From Capnocytophaga periodontitidis (GTDB lineage Bacteria; Bacteroidota; Bacteroidia; Flavobacteriales; Flavobacteriaceae): a stretch of DNA of 64,000 bases. The notes beneath the pieces are model-generated. The model did not search any database. It was not told where the DNA came from and saw only the letters and a list, made by a program, of their open reading frames with translations. Each line of letters opens with the position of its first letter. Position 1 is the stretch's first letter. The stretch is from positions 62,001 through 126,000 of the forward strand of contig NZ_JAEFDB010000006.1 of the NCBI RefSeq assembly GCF_016126015.1. Direction: 5' to 3'. The position numbers and the translations under genes were made by a program. Positions 53,414-64,000 of the stretch are shown in pieces.

Positions 53414-55237
53414 TTATTTTATTTTTTCGGAAAGTTCGACCAAGCGAATGAACTCTTTGCGATAGCCCTCCTCATCTTTTCCAGTCGCATTCTTAGCTAA
53501 ATCTATTACTTGTTTATATGAGGATTTTGCTTTGTATTTAGAATTTCTTAGGAGCATTCCCCATTCGGCAACAGCGGCGGCAAAGCGATAATCATCATCG
53601 GTTTGGGTGAAGTCGGTGAGAGTAAAAGGAATAGGAGTGCTTTCTTCTACGCTTTTAGCATCTTTTACCACAGGGTCTTTATAACGTATTTTGAGGAAAG
53701 CTAATTCATTAGCAAATCCTTCTTTCACTTGTTTTTGATAACGCAACCCATCGGTAGTAGCTCCTTTGGTAGGTATCAATTCATACAAAGCAGTTACAGT
53801 ATGTCCTGCACCTATCTCACCAGCATCTTTCTTGTCGTCTTCAAAATCTTCATTGGCTAAAGTGCGGTTTTCATAGCCTACCAAGCGGTATTCTTTCACG
53901 TATTGAGGGTTGAATTCTAACTGTAGTTTCACATCTTTGGCTACGGTGTAAAGTGTACCACCAAATTCATTTACCAATACTTTTTTGGCTTCGGTAAGAT
54001 TATCGATATAAGCATAGTTACCATTTCCTTTGTTGGCAATGGTTTCTACCATATCATCGCGGTAATTTCCCATACCATAGCCCAATACCGAAATATAAAT
54101 TCCATTGTTGCGCTTCTCTTCTACCAATCGTTGCAACTCATCACGTGAAGAAATTCCTACGTTGAAATCACCATCGGTAGCCAAGATAATACGGTTATTA
54201 CCTTTTGGCAAAAAGTTTTTTTCGGCTACTTCATAGGCAGTTTGTAATCCTGCTCCTCCTGCTGTAGATCCACTAGCTACCAAATCGTCTATCACTTTGG
54301 AGATTTTCTCTTTTTCTTTCGCTGGAGTAGAAGGTAAAGCAATACCTGTTTGACTTGCATAGACTACAATCGCTATCCTATCTTCTGGACGTAAGTTATC
54401 CAAAAGCAATTTGAACGATGCTTTGAGTAGAGGCATTTTATTGGGCTCGTCCATAGAACCTGAGGTATCTATTAGAAACACTATATTAGAAGGTGGCGCT
54501 TTGGTAAGATCTATTTTCTTTGCTTGTAATCCAATGCGCAACAGATAATTATCAGGATTCCAAGGACAGCTACTTAGCGTTGTTGTAGCATTGAGAGGTG
54601 TTTTGCTACCTTCGGCTGGAGGTGTATAGTTATAATCAAAATAGTTGATAAGCTCCTCTATGCGCACAGCATCTTTATGAGGCTTTTGTCCGTAGTTGAG
54701 CATACGGCGCACATTGCTATAAGAAGCTCTATCCACATCGGCAGAGAAAGTTGTTACGGGGTCTTTCGCTGTTTTCTTAAAGCCGCCTTCATCTATTGCT
54801 TTATAAGTCTCGCGAGAAGTATTTAAAGTATAGCCGTTTTTTGTTCCATAATTTCCACTAACACTTCCTGCACCTCTTATACGTATAGAAGAACTAGTTA
54901 CGTCTCGTCTTTTTGCAGTTTCATAACTTGTTACCACCACTTCTTGAAGGGCAACGTTATCTTCTTCTAAAACTACATTGATGACTTTTTGCCCATTAAC
55001 TTTCACTTGTTTGGTTTTCATTCCTAAAGAAGAAAACTCTAGGATATCACCATTCTTTACTTTGATAGTGTATTTACCATCAAAATCAGTAGAAACTCCT
55101 TGGGTAGTTCCTTTGATGAGTACTGAAACTCCAGGTAAAGGATTGTTAGAAACATCAGTAACCTTTCCTGTTACTTCATACTCTTGTGCGTAGAGGCTTC
55201 CTATAAATAGGAAGCAGAATAATAAAATTTGTTTCAT
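53414..55237 (-). CDS. CarboxypepD_reg-like/VWA fusion protein (copy 1)
   Basis: The 607-residue protein starts with a signal peptide (about 1-18). A carboxypeptidase regulatory-like domain follows (about 20-92), then a short sequence like the start of a TonB-dependent receptor plug (ALQEVVVTSYETAKRRDVT). After that come the VWA N-terminal domain, the VWA domain (MIDAS DTSGSM at Asp257) and a C-terminal DUF3520 domain. It is 26 bases after a second copy and shares long near-identical stretches with it, so the two arose by tandem duplication. Confidence 0.87.
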   Translation of the reverse strand: MKQILLFCFLFIGSLYAQEYEVTGKVTDVSNNPLPGVSVLIKGTTQGVSTDFDGKYTIKVKNGDILEFSSLGMKTKQVKVNGQKVINVVLEEDNVALQEVVVTSYETAKRRDVTSSSIRIRGAGSVSGNYGTKNGYTLNTSRETYKAIDEGGFKKTAKDPVTTFSADVDRASYSNVRRMLNYGQKPHKDAVRIEELINYFDYNYTPPAEGSKTPLNATTTLSSCPWNPDNYLLRIGLQAKKIDLTKAPPSNIVFLIDTSGSMDEPNKMPLLKASFKLLLDNLRPEDRIAIVVYASQTGIALPSTPAKEKEKISKVIDDLVASGSTAGGAGLQTAYEVAEKNFLPKGNNRIILATDGDFNVGISSRDELQRLVEEKRNNGIYISVLGYGMGNYRDDMVETIANKGNGNYAYIDNLTEAKKVLVNEFGGTLYTVAKDVKLQLEFNPQYVKEYRLVGYENRTLANEDFEDDKKDAGEIGAGHTVTALYELIPTKGATTDGLRYQKQVKEGFANELAFLKIRYKDPVVKDAKSVEESTPIPFTLTDFTQTDDDYRFAAAVAEWGMLLRNSKYKAKSSYKQVIDLAKNATGKDEEGYRKEFIRLVELSEKIK

Positions 55238-55263
55238 ACCATTAGTTATTTGGATTTAGGTTA

Positions 55264-57075
55264 TTATTTTATTTTTTCGGAAAGCTCAACTAAATCTATA
55301 AATTCTTTACGGTAGCCTTCTTTGTCTTCACCGAGAGCGTTTTTGGCTAATTCAAGTACTTGATTATAAGAAGATTGTGTTTTGTGTTTAGAATTTCTTA
55401 GGAGCATTCCCCATTCGGCAACAGCAGCGGCAAAGCGATAATCATCATCGGTTTGGGCGAGGTCGGTGAGAGTAAAAGGAATAGGAGTGCTTTCTTCTAC
55501 GCTTTTAGTGCGTTTGATGTAAGGGGCTTTATAGCGTATTTTGAGGAAAGCGAGTTCATCTTTATGAGCTTGTGTATTTTGCTTTTGGTAGCGCAACTCG
55601 TCAGTTGTTTTTCCTTTAGCAGGCACTAATTCATAGAGCACTGTTACAGTATGTCCTGCACCTATTTCGCCAGCATCTTTACTATCATCTTTAAAGTCTT
55701 CATTGGCTAAGGCACGGTTTTCATAGCCTATTTGGCGGTATTGTTTCACATATTGGGGGTTGAATTCTAACTGTAGTTTCACATCTTTGGCTACGGTGTA
55801 GAGCGTACCACCAAATTCATTCACCAATACTTTTTTTGCTTCGGCGATATTATCGATATAGGCATAATTACCATTTCCTTTATTGGCTATAGTTTCGAGC
55901 ATATCATCGCGATAATTACCCATACCATAGCCCAATACAGATATATAGACTCCGCTTTGGCGTTCTTTTTCTACCAAGCGTTTCAATTCGCCATCGGAGC
56001 GCACACCGACATTAAAATCACCATCGGTAGCTAATATAATGCGGTTGTTTCCTTTTTCGATAAAGTTCTCGCGGGCAATTTGATAGGCTTTTTGAATACC
56101 AGCTCCTCCAGCGGTAGAGCCACCTGCTTCTAAGTTTTCTAAAACCTTAATAATTGTATCTTTTTCTTTGGCAGGTGTAGAAGGCAAAGCTACCCTTTCA
56201 GCTCCCGCATAGACTACAATCGCTACCCTATCTTCAGGTCGCAAGCTCTCCAAGAGTAGCTTAAACGACTCTTTAAGTAAGGGCAATTTGTCGGGTGAAT
56301 ACATAGAGCCAGAGGTATCTATCAAAAACACTATATTAGAAAGAGGTGCTTTAGTAAGGTCTATTTTTTTTGCTTGCAACCCGATACGCAACAAATAGTT
56401 ATCTGGATTCCAAGGACATTTACTTAGGGTAGTGGTCGCATTGAGAGGTGTTTTACTACCTTCGGCTGGAGGAGTATAGTTATAGTCAAAATAGTTGATA
56501 AGTTCCTCTATGCGCACCGCATCTTTATCGGGTTTTTGCTTATCATTGATCATACGACGTACATTGCTGTAGGAAGCATTATCTACATCGGCGGCAAAGG
56601 TAGTAAGAGGGTCGGTAGCAGTGCTTTTAAAGCCATTCTCATCAATAGCTTTATAAGTTTCGGTTAGTCTTCTCCCTTGGGGTTTACGTTTTCGTTGTCT
56701 TCCTGCTGAGTAACTTTTTACGGCTACTGCACAAGAAACAAAAGATGCTTTCCTTACAGGAGCATAGCCAACTAATACGGTTTCTTCTATCTCGGAAATT
56801 TCTTCTAAAGCTATATCAATTACTTTTTGCCCAGTAATTTTGACTTCTTGAGTTTTATAGCCCATAGCAACAAATTGCAAGGTTTTTCCTTTCTTTACCT
56901 TAATGGAGTATTTACCTTCTTTATTGGTAGTAACTCCTTGAGCAGTACCTTTAATCACTACTGATACGAATTGCAAAGCTCTGTTTGAAGTATCGGATAC
57001 AGTACCAGTTACTTCGTACTCTTGCGCGTGGAGACTTCCTATAAACAGAAAGCAGAATAATAAAATTTGTTTCAT
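55264..57075 (-). CDS. CarboxypepD_reg-like/VWA fusion protein (copy 2)
   Basis: The 603-residue tandem paralog of the gene at 53414. It shares the signal peptide, the CarboxypepD_reg domain and the VWA/DUF3520 region, including the MIDAS DTSGSM. The segment after the regulatory domain differs (EETVLVGYAPVRKASFVSC and basic residues), with much less resemblance to a receptor plug. Both probably bind surface or envelope partners. Confidence 0.87.
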   Translation of the reverse strand: MKQILLFCFLFIGSLHAQEYEVTGTVSDTSNRALQFVSVVIKGTAQGVTTNKEGKYSIKVKKGKTLQFVAMGYKTQEVKITGQKVIDIALEEISEIEETVLVGYAPVRKASFVSCAVAVKSYSAGRQRKRKPQGRRLTETYKAIDENGFKSTATDPLTTFAADVDNASYSNVRRMINDKQKPDKDAVRIEELINYFDYNYTPPAEGSKTPLNATTTLSKCPWNPDNYLLRIGLQAKKIDLTKAPLSNIVFLIDTSGSMYSPDKLPLLKESFKLLLESLRPEDRVAIVVYAGAERVALPSTPAKEKDTIIKVLENLEAGGSTAGGAGIQKAYQIARENFIEKGNNRIILATDGDFNVGVRSDGELKRLVEKERQSGVYISVLGYGMGNYRDDMLETIANKGNGNYAYIDNIAEAKKVLVNEFGGTLYTVAKDVKLQLEFNPQYVKQYRQIGYENRALANEDFKDDSKDAGEIGAGHTVTVLYELVPAKGKTTDELRYQKQNTQAHKDELAFLKIRYKAPYIKRTKSVEESTPIPFTLTDLAQTDDDYRFAAAVAEWGMLLRNSKHKTQSSYNQVLELAKNALGEDKEGYRKEFIDLVELSEKIK

Positions 57076-58755: not shown

Positions 58756-58787
58756 TTTGCTAATTTACTAATTATTGACTACTTTTG
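58756..58787 (+). promoter_or_regulatory. promoter of the ABC ATPase locus
   Basis: TTTG (58756-58759), a 20-base spacer and TACTTTTG (58780-58787) match the consensus. The ATG at 58808 follows. The start at 58775 would lie upstream of the transcript and is rejected. Confidence 0.78.
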
Positions 58788-58807
58788 TCGCATCAAACCA
58801 TTCGTTT

Positions 58808-59962
58808 ATGACAAAACATCAACTCCGCGTACAAAACGCTCTTAAATTCTTTACACAAAAAGATACTGAATTAGGCTTTCGCAAACTCTTAGATTGTGTA
58901 GCCGACACACAACAAATGCCTCTCTACCTAAAGGCTATAGAACTTACCAACTGGAAGGAAAACAATCCTAATGAGTTGGATCAACTTACGGAAAAGGCTT
59001 CTGCCTTACTTGAAGAAGTAGGGCGATGCACCGTAGAGGAGGTAATAACTGAAAAAGCTGTGCTTGTTGCTAAAGACATTAAAAAAACCTACAATTCGGG
59101 AATGTTTTCATTAGGTCCTGTATCACTTACTATTAATAAAGGACAAGTTTATGGCTTAGTAGGTGAAAATGGCAATGGGAAAACAACCCTTTTGCGCATC
59201 TTAGCGCACGACCTCTCTTATAATTCGGGCGAAATAACCTATTACTTCAAAAAAACGCCCACTAATGAATACGATTTACGCACTAAATTAGCTTACATAC
59301 CCCAACGCACCGACAAATGGTATGGTAGTTTGAAAGACAATCTCAAGTTTACTTTGGCGTGCTATGGCATCCCCGCTGAAGAAAACGAACCACGCACTCT
59401 GCTAATGATTGCCCGTTTAGGTTTGTGGAAATATCGCAACCTAAACTGGAATGCACTATCATCGGGGTATAAAATGCGTTTTGAATTAGCGCGTACCCTA
59501 TTACGCCAGCCAGAATTATTGCTTTTAGATGAGCCTTTAGGGAACTTAGATGTATTGGCACAACAAGTAATATTAGAAGACCTCAAAATGATAGCTAACT
59601 CAGTAAATCACCCTATCGCTTTGATATTGAGCTCTCAACAACTCTTTGAAGTAGAAAAAATATCTGACAAGGTAATTTTCCTCAAAAATGGACAATACCG
59701 CGAAAATGTTGAGACTACCCAAGAGGATACCCCTACCCCACTCATCGTAGAAATTGACACTACTAACAGCAGAGAGGAATTATTAGCAGTATTTAGCACT
59801 TTTAATCTTGAAAAATTGCAGTACAATGGAGGTATTTACATCGCTTATTTTGCTGAAGGTACAGAATATTCTACTGTGTTAGAAGCTCTTGGTAAAGCTA
59901 AAATAGAGCTTACTTATATACGAAATATTTCAGCTTCTACCCGCCGTTTCTTTGTGAGTTAG
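58808..59962 (+). CDS. ABC transporter ATPase with an N-terminal helical extension
   Basis: The 384-residue ATPase has about 85 extra residues in front of the ABC domain, mostly helical (LKFFTQKDTELGFRKLLD). The ABC domain then shows Walker A GENGNGKT (119-126), the signature LSSGYK (217-222) and Walker B LLLLDEP (237-243). A C-terminal extension of about 75 residues follows. Such ATPases usually pair with ABC-2-type permeases. It is followed at 87 bases by four tandem membrane-protein genes on the same strand. Confidence 0.88.
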   Translation: MTKHQLRVQNALKFFTQKDTELGFRKLLDCVADTQQMPLYLKAIELTNWKENNPNELDQLTEKASALLEEVGRCTVEEVITEKAVLVAKDIKKTYNSGMFSLGPVSLTINKGQVYGLVGENGNGKTTLLRILAHDLSYNSGEITYYFKKTPTNEYDLRTKLAYIPQRTDKWYGSLKDNLKFTLACYGIPAEENEPRTLLMIARLGLWKYRNLNWNALSSGYKMRFELARTLLRQPELLLLDEPLGNLDVLAQQVILEDLKMIANSVNHPIALILSSQQLFEVEKISDKVIFLKNGQYRENVETTQEDTPTPLIVEIDTTNSREELLAVFSTFNLEKLQYNGGIYIAYFAEGTEYSTVLEALGKAKIELTYIRNISASTRRFFVS

Positions 59963-59998
59963 TTTTTAGGGGATAGGTGTCAGGTGTCAGGGGACAGG

Positions 59999-60090
59999 TG
60001 TTAGGTTTTAGGAGGTATAGGTTATTAATTATAAAACACTCATTATCAATTGAAAAAATATTTATTAGAACGTTATCCAGCAATTTGGAA
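59999..60090 (+). repeat. 92-bp leader/5'-coding block, copy 1
   Basis: This block spans the leader and the first 13-14 codons of the first membrane protein. It is the same 92 bases as copies at 61101, 62221 and 63311, except for two bases that differ in copy 3. The sharp boundaries against diverged flanks suggest gene conversion. Confidence 0.9.
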
Positions 60091-61078
60091 CATTCAGATT
60101 GTGTGGCTATTTCCATTAATACTCTTATCCCATTTAGTCTTTTTTGGATTGGGATTTATAATGCTCACTGATAGTACGTTAGGGAATTCCTATTACCTGT
60201 GGGGAAGCTTGTATAATGGCTTACCTATGTTGTTAAACTTTATTATAATTGTTTTGTTATTGGTAGGTTGCCTTATTTATTTGTTTAGAAACAATGCTTT
60301 TGAGCGTTTCTACCCTGTGAGTCGTTGGCAATTGTTTGGGCGTTTTGTAGCGTACCTTGTGATTATCTTTGGAATGACAAGCACTCATATTTCGTTTATA
60401 GCAGGTGAGAAAGCTAAAGTTCATTGGCGGTATAGTGATAGCTATATCCATAGTATTTTGCAACAGTATCCTGAGAATTTTGACTCTTCTTACGAAGAAG
60501 TACGATATAGTAATAAAAACCAAATAAATGAGTTCTTTATCGCGCGAAATGCTAAGAATATGAAGACCAATACGTTTATAGAAATAGTAAAAGACAAATT
60601 GAATACTATTACAGTTATAGTTTTTGTACTCACATTGTTGCTCTTCACGGTACGCATCACCTCATTGCGCACAGTGCTATTAGCTATTGTTTTTGGAGGT
60701 TTGTTTCTTCTATTTATCCATTTGTTAGGTTTACTTATTTTATATCTTGTGGGCAATAAAAATGATTTGTTCACTTCTATCACAATAACATGCGCAAGTT
60801 TCCTCGTTCTACTCGGCATTTCAGTAAATTCTAAAAACAAACTATATAGAGAGATTGCTATAAATAATGCTATTTACACTTTTTTTCCTATAATAGCTGT
60901 TATTTTTACAGACATTGTGGATAAATTTTATTTGTGGCACTTTATAAAAGACCATTATGGAAAGTTTTGGGATAACCTACGAGAATTGCTTTTTTTGGAT
61001 ATTGGTATATTGCTAACCATACTTTTTATAGGACTTTATACAGGAGTTATCAAGAGGTGTAAAGCAATGCCAGAGTAG
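60050..61078 (+). CDS. multi-pass membrane protein, tandem paralog 1 (probable ABC-2 permease)
   Basis: The 342-residue protein has about eight hydrophobic segments (roughly 17-39, 58-79, 97-118, 185-202, 206-235, 240-260, 275-292, 312-332). A polar loop of about 60 residues lies between the third and fourth. The motif NNAFERFYPVSRWQLF after the second segment is like the coupling region of ABC-2 permeases, and VRITSLRT precedes the fifth. The start is TTG; the frame is closed upstream by TAA at 60032-60034 and no ATG or GTG lies between. It is the first of four paralogs behind the ATPase. Confidence 0.75.
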   Translation: MKKYLLERYPAIWNIQIVWLFPLILLSHLVFFGLGFIMLTDSTLGNSYYLWGSLYNGLPMLLNFIIIVLLLVGCLIYLFRNNAFERFYPVSRWQLFGRFVAYLVIIFGMTSTHISFIAGEKAKVHWRYSDSYIHSILQQYPENFDSSYEEVRYSNKNQINEFFIARNAKNMKTNTFIEIVKDKLNTITVIVFVLTLLLFTVRITSLRTVLLAIVFGGLFLLFIHLLGLLILYLVGNKNDLFTSITITCASFLVLLGISVNSKNKLYREIAINNAIYTFFPIIAVIFTDIVDKFYLWHFIKDHYGKFWDNLRELLFLDIGILLTILFIGLYTGVIKRCKAMPE

Positions 61079-61100
61079 AGGTTAGGTGTCAGGGGACAGG

Positions 61101-61192
61101 TGTTAGGTTTTAGGAGGTATAGGTTATTAATTATAAAACACTCATTATCAATTGAAAAAATATTTATTAGAACGTTATCCAGCAATTTGGAA
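61101..61192 (+). repeat. 92-bp leader/5'-coding block, copy 2
   Basis: Identical to copy 1 over all 92 bases. The coding sequence diverges at once after it. Confidence 0.9.
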
Positions 61193-62177
61193 TACGCATT
61201 TAATATGGGCGTTGCCTCTCATTCTTGCAATCCACTTATTCTTTTTCTTGTGGGGATTTGCTACTATTACCGATGAGAATATGAGCAACTATTCTTTTGG
61301 TTTGGAAAACCATTTTGAAGGGTTGCCTATGGTGATGAGCTTTATTATCATTGTACTAATGTTAGTAGGATGGTTCATTCGTTTGTTTAAGAATAATGCT
61401 TTTAAACGTTTTTATCCTGTGAGTGAGTGGCAATTATTCAGGCAATTTGTGATATATCTCTTTATTATGGGAGGCATACTCAGTTCAGGGCTTTCGTTTA
61501 CAATAGGTGAATCGGCTAAAGTACATTTGCGATATACCGACAGCTATATACACAATGTATTACAACAATACCCTAAAAATTTTAACTTTGAAGATGTAGA
61601 GAGACTCCCTGAAGCACAACAAAGGGAATACAACATAGCTAACAATGCTAAAGATATCAAGAAACGCTTGTTTGTAATGGAGCTCAATGAGGAAATTACA
61701 ATGGTAGAAACAGCTGTTTTTATACTCACATCGTTGCTCTTTATAGTACGTATCACTTCATTACGTACAGCATTGCTAACTATTTTATTTAGTGGATTGT
61801 TATGTTTATTATTCGCTCTGTTAGTAGTATTCATATTATTTATGGATATTGAAAATTATGGAGAAGATAGTATATTGTTTTTTCTCTTATGGATTATCTA
61901 TCTCTCAATACTTTTATACTCTACTACCTCCTCTAATAAACTACAGAGAGGTATCGCTATGAATATCACAATATTAGATTTCTTTCCTATCATAATAGCT
62001 ACTCTTTTCTTTTTAGAAAAGAGATACTTTAGAAGGAATTATGATAATGATATTCATTATTCACTCTGGCATAACTTCGAGGAACTTATCATTTTTAGCT
62101 GTAGCATATTGCTTTCAATTGGATTTATAGGACTTTATACGAATGTTATCAAACGATGGAGAGCAATGCCGGAATAG
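61152..62177 (+). CDS. multi-pass membrane protein, tandem paralog 2 (probable ABC-2 permease)
   Basis: A 341-residue paralog with the same layout and motifs (NNAFKRFYPVSEWQLF, VRITSLRTALL, ending in KRWRAMPE). After the 92-bp block it is the most diverged of the copies, including the polar loop (about 130-175) and the last third. The start is TTG. Confidence 0.75.
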   Translation: MKKYLLERYPAIWNTHLIWALPLILAIHLFFFLWGFATITDENMSNYSFGLENHFEGLPMVMSFIIIVLMLVGWFIRLFKNNAFKRFYPVSEWQLFRQFVIYLFIMGGILSSGLSFTIGESAKVHLRYTDSYIHNVLQQYPKNFNFEDVERLPEAQQREYNIANNAKDIKKRLFVMELNEEITMVETAVFILTSLLFIVRITSLRTALLTILFSGLLCLLFALLVVFILFMDIENYGEDSILFFLLWIIYLSILLYSTTSSNKLQRGIAMNITILDFFPIIIATLFFLEKRYFRRNYDNDIHYSLWHNFEELIIFSCSILLSIGFIGLYTNVIKRWRAMPE

Positions 62178-62220
62178 AGGTCAGGTTTCAGGTGTCAGGT
62201 GTCAGGGGACAGGGGACAAG

Positions 62221-62312
62221 TGTTAGGTTTTAGGGGGTATAGCTTATTAATTATAAAACACTCATTATCAATTGAAAAAATATTTATTAGAACGTTATCC
62301 AGCAATTTGGAA
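62221..62312 (+). repeat. 92-bp leader/5'-coding block, copy 3
   Basis: Differs from the other copies by two bases in the leader (one A to G, one G to C); the coding part is identical. Confidence 0.9.
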
Positions 62313-63294
62313 TACACACGTGGTATTGTTATTACCACTGATACTCTTATCCCATTTAGTCTTTTTTGGATTGGGATTTATAATGCTCACTGATAGCACG
62401 TTAGGAATTTCCTATTACCCGTGGGGAAACTTGTTTAATGGCTTGCCTATGTTGTTAAACTTTATTATAATTGTTTTGCTATTAGTAGGTTGGCTTATTT
62501 ATTTGTTTAGAAACAATGCTTTTGAGCGTTTCTACCCTGTGAGTCGTTGGCAATTGTTTTGGCGTTTTGTAGTATACTTTGCTGTTATTGGCGGAATTAC
62601 AAGTTCTAGTTTTTCATTTATGGCAGGTGAGAAAGCTAAAGTATACTGGCGGTATACCGATAGCTACATTCATAGTGTATTACGACAATACCCTGAGGAT
62701 ATTCGCGATTCTGAAAGGGAACAATTATCTGATGATCAACTAAAGGAATATCACATAGTTCATAATGCATCACAAATAAAAAAACAAGTGTTTATAGAAA
62801 ATTTTGATGATGAAATTTTTCTTGTAATCATTATTGCTTTTGTTTTAACTATATTGATTTTTACAGTACGTATCACCTCATTGCGTACAGTGTTGCTCTC
62901 TATTGTTTTCAGTGGCTTGTTGTGCTTGCTGCTTGGCTTAGTGCTCATATTGGTTTTGGAGAGCAATATGTTTGCAATACGAGATGTATATGTAGTGCTG
63001 ACAATCTTATGGTTGACTTACCTTTCAGTGATTGCTTTATCTATTTTCTCTAACAAAAAACAATACCGAGGTATTGCAATGAATACTTCACTATTTGGTT
63101 TTTTGCCTATGACAATTGTTACTCTAATAGCTATCTGTGAGAGATATAATTGGTGGTATTTTTTAGAAAAGAATTACAGTTATTGGTACGATATAAGAGA
63201 ACTTATAATTTCAATAGTAGGGATACTGCTTTCATTTGTGTTTGTAGGGCTTTATACGAATATTATCAAACGATGGAAGGCAATGCCGGAGTAG
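62272..63294 (+). CDS. multi-pass membrane protein, tandem paralog 3 (probable ABC-2 permease)
   Basis: A 340-residue paralog. The N-terminal third is nearly identical to paralog 1 at the DNA level (for example the SHLVFFGLGFIMLTDSTLG region), while the loop and C-terminal parts differ. Motifs NNAFERFYPVSRWQLF and VRITSLRTVLL are kept and the end is KRWKAMPE. The start is TTG. Confidence 0.75.
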   Translation: MKKYLLERYPAIWNTHVVLLLPLILLSHLVFFGLGFIMLTDSTLGISYYPWGNLFNGLPMLLNFIIIVLLLVGWLIYLFRNNAFERFYPVSRWQLFWRFVVYFAVIGGITSSSFSFMAGEKAKVYWRYTDSYIHSVLRQYPEDIRDSEREQLSDDQLKEYHIVHNASQIKKQVFIENFDDEIFLVIIIAFVLTILIFTVRITSLRTVLLSIVFSGLLCLLLGLVLILVLESNMFAIRDVYVVLTILWLTYLSVIALSIFSNKKQYRGIAMNTSLFGFLPMTIVTLIAICERYNWWYFLEKNYSYWYDIRELIISIVGILLSFVFVGLYTNIIKRWKAMPE

Positions 63295-63310
63295 AGTGTC
63301 AGGGGTCAGG

Positions 63311-63402
63311 TGTTAGGTTTTAGGAGGTATAGGTTATTAATTATAAAACACTCATTATCAATTGAAAAAATATTTATTAGAACGTTATCCAGCAATTTGG
63401 AA
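63311..63402 (+). repeat. 92-bp leader/5'-coding block, copy 4
   Basis: Identical to copy 1 over all 92 bases. It precedes the fourth, partly visible paralog. Confidence 0.9.
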
Positions 63403-64000
63403 TACGCAGGTGATACTGTTATTACCACTGATATTCTTATCTCATTTAGTCTTTTTCGCTTTGGGATTTATAATGCTCACCGACGGAAAGTTATGTAAGG
63501 GGTATTACCCGTGGGGGGACTCGTTTAATGGCTTACCAATGTTGTTAAACTTTATTATAATTGTTTTGTTATTGGTAGGTTGGTTTATCTATTTGTTTAG
63601 AAACAATGCTTTTGATCGTTTCTACCCTGTGAGTCGTTGGCAATTGTTTTGGCGTTTTGTAGTGTATTTCGCTGTTATTTTGGGGATTATCAGTACTGGT
63701 TTTTCATTTATGACAGGTGAGAAAGCTAAAGTATATTGGCGGTATACTGATAGTTACCTTCACAGTGTGCTACAACAATATCCTGAGTATATTAGCGATT
63801 CTGAAATGAAACAATTTTCTGAAGCTCAGCGAGAAGAGTATTACATAGCTCATAATGCATCACTTATAAAAGAGCGAGTGTTTATAGAAAAATTTGATGC
63901 GCAAATTAACTTTATAATTATTATCGCTTTTTTACTCACATTATTACTCTTTGCGGTACGTATTACCTCATTGCGTACAGTGTTACTCTCTATTGTATTT
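63362..64000 (+). CDS. multi-pass membrane protein, tandem paralog 4 (3' end outside window)
   Basis: From the TTG at 63362 the frame is open for 213 codons to the end of the window. It reads MKKYLLERYPAIWNTQV, keeps NNAFDRFYPVSRWQLF and VRITSLRTVLLSIVF, and is closest to paralog 3. The missing part would hold the last four transmembrane segments. More copies could follow beyond the window. Confidence 0.75.
   Translation, partial: MKKYLLERYPAIWNTQVILLLPLIFLSHLVFFALGFIMLTDGKLCKGYYPWGDSFNGLPMLLNFIIIVLLLVGWFIYLFRNNAFDRFYPVSRWQLFWRFVVYFAVILGIISTGFSFMTGEKAKVYWRYTDSYLHSVLQQYPEYISDSEMKQFSEAQREEYYIAHNASLIKERVFIEKFDAQINFIIIIAFLLTLLLFAVRITSLRTVLLSIVF

Follow-up and report, generated by a model that had tools for sequence, protein, structure and literature searches.

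Structure of the locus

The DNA considered here (the window) is a stretch of 64 000 nucleotides from Capnocytophaga periodontitidis, corresponding to positions 62001-126000 of contig C52 in the genome designated G000. Towards its end lies a gene encoding an ATP-binding cassette (ABC) ATPase, followed by a tandem array of paralogous genes encoding putative permeases. The ATPase is found in an open reading frame at 58775-59962 (window positions, plus strand, unless stated otherwise). The ATG at 58808 is its likely start, because homologues align from there; the resulting protein of 384 amino acids (58808..59962) comprises an N-terminal extension of ~85 residues that is conserved in the family (58808..59059, residues 1 to ~84), an ABC domain starting at about residue 84, and a C-terminal region. 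It is followed by the permease genes P1 (60050-61078, 342 amino acids, TTG start), P2 (61152-62177, 341 amino acids), P3 (62272-63294, 340 amino acids) and P4, which begins at 63362 and has the first 213 of its 341 codons within the window (to 64000), the gene ending at contig position 126387. A first-pass annotation, made from the sequence of the window, had described an ATPase and four paralogues of 340-342 residues placed about 1.1 kb apart. This description holds, with start-to-start distances of 1102, 1120 and 1090 bp from P1 to P4 and a complete P4 of 341 amino acids, and reading the contig past the end of the window raises the count from four to six. The two further copies, P5 (contig C52, 126446-127309) and P6 (127369-128214), encode 287 and 281 amino acids, respectively, from the aligned TTG, and are followed by an opposing gene for a SpecificRecomb-domain protein. 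All six tandem copies have TTG at the aligned start; P5 has an additional in-frame GTG upstream of it. A seventh copy of 273-279 amino acids stands alone on contig C1 of the same genome.

The first four copies share 49-70% pairwise protein identity, and a search with P1 retrieves P2, P3 and P4 at E values of 2.9e-89 or lower, so that their likeness is not due to chance. P5 and P6 are 41% identical to each other and 28-35% identical to P1-P4. Two motifs that the first-pass annotation reported, FYPVS[RE]WQLF and RITSLRT, are indeed common to all of P1-P4 (4/4); in P1 they lie at 60308..60337 (as FYPVSRWQLF) and 60653..60673, respectively. Hydropathy analysis likewise agrees with the eight-segment layout first proposed for P1-P4. 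By this criterion P1-P5 each have eight predicted transmembrane (TM) segments, and their presumed inner loops carry positive charge; the same rule gives six segments in P6. Across 20 of the 38 family members, which were scanned in the same way, eight segments were found in 17, seven in two and six in one (P6). The predicted topology places the N-terminus inside, FYPVSxWQLF (between TM2 and TM3) and RITSLRT (between TM4 and TM5) on the cytoplasmic side, and a polar loop between TM3 and TM4 outside.

The spacers between the genes are themselves repetitive. Those between the ATPase and P1 (59963..60049, 87 bp), P1 and P2 (61079..61151, 73 bp), P2 and P3 (62178..62271, 94 bp) and P3 and P4 (63295..63361, 67 bp) all carry GTCAGGT-type heptamers and a leader common to P1-P4. 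Runs of GTCAGG[TG] occur near 59979, 61081, 62194 and 63298, and the leader with the first ~50 coding bases forms a 114-nt unit that is almost identical at P1-P4 (92-94%) and 66 and 76% identical at P5 and P6, respectively. A 14-base heptamer-pair pattern occurs 12 times in the whole G000 genome, four of these in the array spacers, and in the sister genome of Capnocytophaga sputigena (G014) four of 18 matches fall in array spacers (two places, with overlaps); the other 18 Capnocytophaga genomes contain one match in total. The heptamers cluster at the array because the spacers were duplicated along with the genes. The common leader and spacer sequence could be a site of crossing-over. Scanning the array for promoters and terminators was uninformative, with 34 promoter-like sites against 29.0 expected and three terminator-like sites against 4.7 expected.

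Recombination and divergence among the copies

The permease copies are recombinant, as judged from the pattern of identity along their sequences. In codon alignments P1, P3 and P4 are 77-96% identical at the DNA level over the first ~110 codons and 36-83% identical past RITSLRT. The clearest case is the first copy of the C. sputigena array (here Sa), which in its front part resembles P2 (76-94%) and in its back part P3 (74-90%). The switch from P2 to P3 falls at residue 196 (maximum chi-square 123.5, 324 informative sites, p 0.0005, which is the permutation limit). Maximum chi-square tests of 12 triplets, some of which are mirror images of one another, gave uncorrected p values of 0.0005-0.035, with 7/12 at the permutation limit of 0.0005. 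Variation in rate along the gene could contribute to any single test of this kind. The switch in Sa is not such a rate effect, because the nearest relative itself changes from P2 to P3.

Comparison with C. sputigena also reveals where the array is most variable. DNA identity between the two genomes is 97.4% for the ATPase, 98.3% for P4, 96.3% for P5 and 94.3% for P6, and the ATPase proteins are 99.5% identical. Sa, in comparison, reaches at best 75.4% DNA identity with any of P1-P3. Since the remaining orthologues are 94-98% identical, the slot between the ATPase and P4 is the most variable part of the array. Outside the array, the phosphomannomutase-like gene upstream is 97.1% identical, the gene after P6 90.5% and the orphan copy 91.9%, so that the downstream flank is also less conserved between the sister genomes. 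A simple recent deletion was considered as the origin of Sa. It would give the right shape, with a P2 front and a P3 back, but Sa is 74.6-75.4% identical to P2 and P3; set against the 94-98% of the P4-P6 orthologues, this means that Sa did not arise by recent deletion from an identical array.

The first-pass annotation had expected the copies to differ in the polar loop, and in this it was mistaken. Among P1, P2, P3, P4 and Sa, the nonsynonymous divergence (dN) is highest in residues 230-340 in nine of 10 pairs (0.39-0.59) and lower elsewhere (0.10-0.42 in the polar loop, 0.09-0.34 in the N-terminal third); the pair P3/Sa, which shares this segment, has a dN of 0.14 there. Where the synonymous divergence (dS) is below 1, whole-gene dN/dS lies between 0.09 and 0.34. 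These ratios together with the intact frames indicate that the copies are kept as proteins. In the C-terminal third dN/dS is 0.66-0.68 in P2/P3, P2/Sa and P3/Sa, which suggests weaker constraint on the C-terminus. Several dS values are saturated or undefined; no whole-gene or regional pair with a defined dS has a dN/dS above 1, which gives no proof of positive selection.

Phylogenetic analysis unites the short permeases of Capnocytophaga (support 98/95), and two subfamilies can be distinguished among them. Subfamily A holds P1-P4, Sa, Sb, G11_2, G11_3 and G07_1, and subfamily B holds P5, P6, Sc, Sd, the orphans, G07_2, G02, G03 and G19. The forks of A and B have support of 93/97 and 87/97, which is open rather than strong, and G11_1 forms a long branch. 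Because of recombination, any single tree of the A copies is unreliable.

Distribution of the ATPase and permease genes

Among 100 related genomes the permease was detected in 12 and the ATPase extension in 13, with 12 genomes common to both. The thirteenth (G072) showed only the extension in the first searches, and a more diverged permease was then found in it by profile. Within the genus, eight of 20 Capnocytophaga genomes carry the system, and in a sample of the order it occurs in 22/395 genomes. Loci from 32 distinct genomes, drawn from the 100 relatives and the order sample, were compared, and in every one of the 32 one or more permease genes come directly after the ATPase on the same strand. 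Tandem copies are found only in four of the eight system-bearing Capnocytophaga genomes, with two in G007, three in G011, four in C. sputigena and six in G000, and the other 28 of the 32 genomes have a single copy; these counts do not change with a wider profile at E 1e-3. Gaps between the genes in G007 and G011 are 2-29 bp, as in an operon. In one locus (L174) the ATPase runs into the contig end, and in genome G279 (L081/L181) a stop interrupts the ATPase frame beside the permease.

Single permeases that fall outside the group of short Capnocytophaga proteins are longer (445-637 amino acids); the permease of Capnocytophaga G016 is one of these. In the members scanned, their additional length, up to ~320 residues, lies between TM3 and TM4, and in the other long permeases the profile match is broken at the same site. 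Beyond the order, 37/395 genomes in a sample of the class match the family, of which 34 are new; the loci of 20 of these were read. At 15 of these 20 distant Bacteroidia loci an adjacent ATPase is followed by a same-strand permease, and at two of them (L201 and L209) the single ATPase is accompanied by two permeases. Three distant loci (L194-L196) hold single permease relatives of 388-405 amino acids, with no ATPase relative in the 7-8 kb fetched.

The neighbours of the array in the window are a phosphomannomutase-like gene, two genes for vWFA proteins and the SpecificRecomb-domain gene, and no lantibiotic or two-component genes were found among them. The vWFA/YfbK_C genes form a tandem pair of their own on the minus strand (53414-57075), encoding 607 and 603 amino acids with 24/26 of the first residues identical; C. 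sputigena has only one such gene at this position. A conserved functional neighbour was rejected as a general feature of the system, the largest neighbour groups covering 8/32 loci. At L059, L060, L061 and L171 (4/32 loci) the long single permease is followed by a protein from one family, and upstream, in divergent orientation, there is a gene from a family common to these loci. The protein after the permease was scanned in two of these four loci and corresponds to SBP_bac_5 in L061 and, partially, in L059.

The ATPase

The ATPase matches PF00005 (ABC_tran; E 2.2e-26, 93.5 bits, cut-off 25), as do 12/12 aligned homologues, and contains the motifs GENGNGKT, LSSGYKMR, LLLLDEP and SSQQ. In the 12 aligned ATPases Walker A (GENGNGKTT, 12/12), Walker B (DEP, 12/12, with its glutamate intact) and the signature LSSGYK are retained. 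The protein is 77-81% identical to its orthologues in G007 and G011. By E value its closest NCBIfam models are GldA, DrrA and lantibiotic protection, all far below cut-off, with importer ATPases close behind and PmtC among the ten best, also below cut-off. The score against the GldA model (101.1 bits against a cut-off of 402.6 bits) does not support an assignment to the gliding system GldAFG. Chain 6xjh_C (290 residues), which we take to be of the PmtC type, also aligns with the ATPase profile over its residues 3-279. A comparison with PADLOC gave 18 matches (best mad3, 6.7e-18), which are read as shared ATPase sequence.

The N-terminal extension had been noted as unusual at about 85 residues. 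The length is correct, but within the family the extension is usual. It is present in 31/32 genomes of the order (L181 counted by its first piece only), and in the remaining one (L174) the gene is too near the contig end for judging. Among 14 distant ATPases with a readable N-terminus, two (L201 and L208) lack it, and L206 is cut by its contig.

Interpretation of the array as a transporter

The array is most simply read as an operon encoding an ABC transporter of the inner membrane, from a so far uncharacterised family of the Bacteroidia, in which one ATPase would serve interchangeable permeases, and we consider this reading about as probable as its denial. That one ATPase serves several permeases, as the first-pass annotation inferred, is a natural reading of the linkage in 32/32 genomes, the co-occurrence in 12/100 genomes and the operon-like gaps of 2-29 bp. 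In the proposed mechanism a dimer of the ATPase would work on two paired permeases and touch their two motifs FYPVSxWQLF and RITSLRT; the predicted position of both motifs on the cytoplasmic side was counted in favour of the overall reading. We infer the order of events, the pairing of subunits, the direction of transport and the class of substrate as follows. The older form in the order was probably one ATPase with one larger permease bearing the long outer segment. In one lineage of Capnocytophaga this TM3-TM4 segment would then have shrunk and the permease gene would have been duplicated in tandem, after which unequal recombination may have combined N-terminal halves that are conserved and face the motor with differing C-terminal halves. 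The outcome would be variable permeases on a constant motor, with a probable role in exporting or removing hydrophobic or peptide compounds of various kinds. The gene order, copy number, co-occurrence, topology by hydropathy, mosaicism and variable slot described above are the observations from which this scheme is drawn.

Several results weigh against it. Among the 38 permease family members and 10 distant relatives, no protein scores over any Pfam cut-off or corresponds to a transporter model of NCBIfam, the weak sub-cut-off matches being scattered. In NCBIfam, the 38 members gave no match to an ABC-2 model at E up to 1, and the 10 distant relatives gave no ABC-2 match at E up to 0.1. In sequence searches of solved structures, profile A1 gave no match up to E 1 and profile A5 gave nine weak matches up to E 10 (best 0.11), none to a named transporter. 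Comparison of profiles by hhalign was also negative. The permease family reached E 0.21 against a set of 18 proteins, presumably GldF-like, and 0.043 against 23 ABC2_membrane_2 proteins, and the reversed controls (0.007 and 0.003) outscored these real profiles; shuffled controls gave 0.21-0.9 and an unrelated VTT set 0.46, all with small profiles of weak sensitivity. Twelve of the 20 Capnocytophaga genomes lack the system, 28 of the 32 genomes of the order have a single permease, and five of the 20 distant loci have no ATPase in the 7-9 kb fetched. The ATPase itself raises doubt about ordinary turnover. A canonical H-loop carries the switch histidine, and glutamine takes the expected place of this residue in 47/47 ATPases read. 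This position, assigned by the distance to the following glutamate, reads [ST]SQ in 32/32 loci of the order, of which 29 were recognised by pattern and three by eye, and in 15/15 distant ATPases, for which the figures are 14 and one.

The first-pass annotation had named, as a finding that would speak against a shared ATPase, arrays located away from any ABC ATPase, and such cases exist in part. Orphan copies without an adjacent ATPase occur singly in two genomes (G000 and C. sputigena), no ATPase relative being found around the C1 orphan (12 kb) or the same orphan of C. sputigena (13 kb). At two distant loci (L197 and L198) permeases stand as tandem pairs, and the ~9 kb fetched contains no ATPase; the second L198 protein is below the profile threshold and 28.7% identical to the first.

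The same annotation had linked the permeases to the ABC-2 type, and this link did not gain from the searches. A match to ABC2_membrane_5 (PF13346) was found in 1/38 members (E 8.1e-5, 22.7 bits, under the cut-off of 25); it spans residues 161-299 and leaves out the FYPVS motif. The six TM segments per subunit expected of ABC-2 permeases are also at variance with the eight predicted, by hydropathy only, in 17/20 members. Because the profile comparisons fail, the partner ATPase and the general layout are all that the ABC-2 label draws on, and membership is plausible at most on the present sequences. Thus, the earlier annotation was right in outline and wrong on the site of divergence, the recombination among the copies had escaped it, and its overall reading is partly supported.

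Comparison with known systems

ABC-2 permeases have a short conserved motif after TM2, comparable to FYPVSxWQLF. The array resembles the ABC-2 exporters DrrAB, GldAF and PmtABCD in that its ATPase is nearest to the DrrA/GldA kind and its permeases have several TM segments and a predicted inside N-terminus. It differs from them in having mostly eight predicted TM segments rather than six and a large outer segment between TM3 and TM4, and no profile similarity to them was found. FhuC and MsmK belong to uptake systems whose permeases are encoded at separate loci and which have binding proteins, whereas here tandem paralogues lie directly behind the ATPase. Both are described as single ATPases that energise several permeases (PMC10147376 for FhuC; PMC4519317 for MsmK).

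The lantibiotic transporters LanFEG, CprABC and NsrFE1E2G come closer in gene layout. In each, a single ATPase gene is accompanied by two or three genes for membrane proteins, the subunits have six TM segments (or 2+4+6), and the set is fixed, with lantibiotic or two-component genes nearby (PMC5786555). In contrast, the present system has up to six recombining paralogues and lacks lantibiotic and two-component neighbours in the window. Where LanFEG and CprABC have two different permeases per ATPase, G007 has two permeases and other genomes of the order have 1, 3, 4 or 6. BceAB consists of one ATPase and one permease with an outer domain of 200-250 residues, BceB having 10 TM segments and the domain between TM7 and TM8 (PMC5786555). 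The long single form likewise combines one ATPase with one permease bearing an outer segment, but with eight predicted TM segments and the outer segment between TM3 and TM4. A literature search, whose coverage left out most subscription papers, found no description of a tandem, recombining permease array.

Alternative explanations

The copies may constitute a repertoire built by recombination, in which the N-terminal, motor-facing halves would be homogenised and the C-terminal, ligand-facing halves swapped by crossing-over within the array. A hypervariable slot beside the ATPase gene would result, and homo- and heteropairs would yield many types of transporter from the one ATPase. We offer this extension tentatively, as one that is possible but more probably wrong than right. 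A fixed heteromer would account for the array differently, with subfamilies A (P1-P4) and B (P5 and P6) as two halves of one transporter and the further A copies as spares or for dosage. The division of the short permeases in the tree, the presence of one copy of each in G007, the order of four A followed by two B in G000 and the two permeases beside one ATPase at L201 and L209 all fit such a heteromer, for which LanFEG and CprABC are precedents (PMC5786555), LanE and LanG being two different halves of one transporter. On the other hand, the forks of A and B lack strong support, only B occurs in G002, G003 and G019, two A copies and a divergent one are present in G011, and 28/32 genomes have a single permease; we regard this explanation as unlikely. 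The array could also be a hypervariable membrane family selected for recognition involving phage, bacteriocins or host molecules, with transport secondary or lost. Suggestive points are the slot beside the ATPase, with no more than 75% identity between the sister genomes against 96-98% for the ATPase, P4 and P5 and 94% for P6, and the predicted outer loop between TM7 and TM8. This loop lies within the most divergent third, in which dN/dS reaches 0.66-0.68 in three pairs whose dS is below 1. Yet no dN/dS exceeds 1, the divergence extends into TM segments, and a protein of the inner membrane, as inferred here, is less exposed than an outer-membrane receptor. Moreover, five permeases given to PADLOC found no match at E up to 0.01, and P3 had no match in plasmid or phage records. 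Selection for recognition appears improbable to us.

Neutral tandem duplication, with amplification of dosage, occasional recombination and no new specificity, is a further alternative. Unequal crossing-over lets tandem arrays expand and contract, the common heptamers and leader offer homology for it, and a second tandem pair, that of the vWFA genes, lies nearby. The six intact frames at about 30-70% identity argue the other way, being too diverged for dosage and too intact for neglect, and we give this explanation little credence. Finally, the H-loop change from histidine to glutamine in every ATPase read, and a membrane part that matches no known family, might point to a sensor or a membrane-remodelling machine with slow ATP turnover. 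The catalytic effect of this glutamine is presumed, and Walker A, the Walker B glutamate and the LSSGYK signature are intact in the 12 aligned ATPases; a machine of this type is very improbable.

Implications

The new elements are the array of six copies, its mosaic structure including a variable slot, a wide family that lacks a model, and glutamine in the H-loop. The analysis exposes a family of Bacteroidia transporters, as we read it, in which the permeases tested correspond to no model in Pfam or NCBIfam and the ATPase has an unusual H-loop. The latter may provide a place where the need for the switch histidine could be probed. If the interpretation as one ATPase with interchangeable permeases is true, the array would represent an ABC transporter diversified by shuffling of its membrane half with the motor kept, and thus a route to new specificity that could be traced in living strains.

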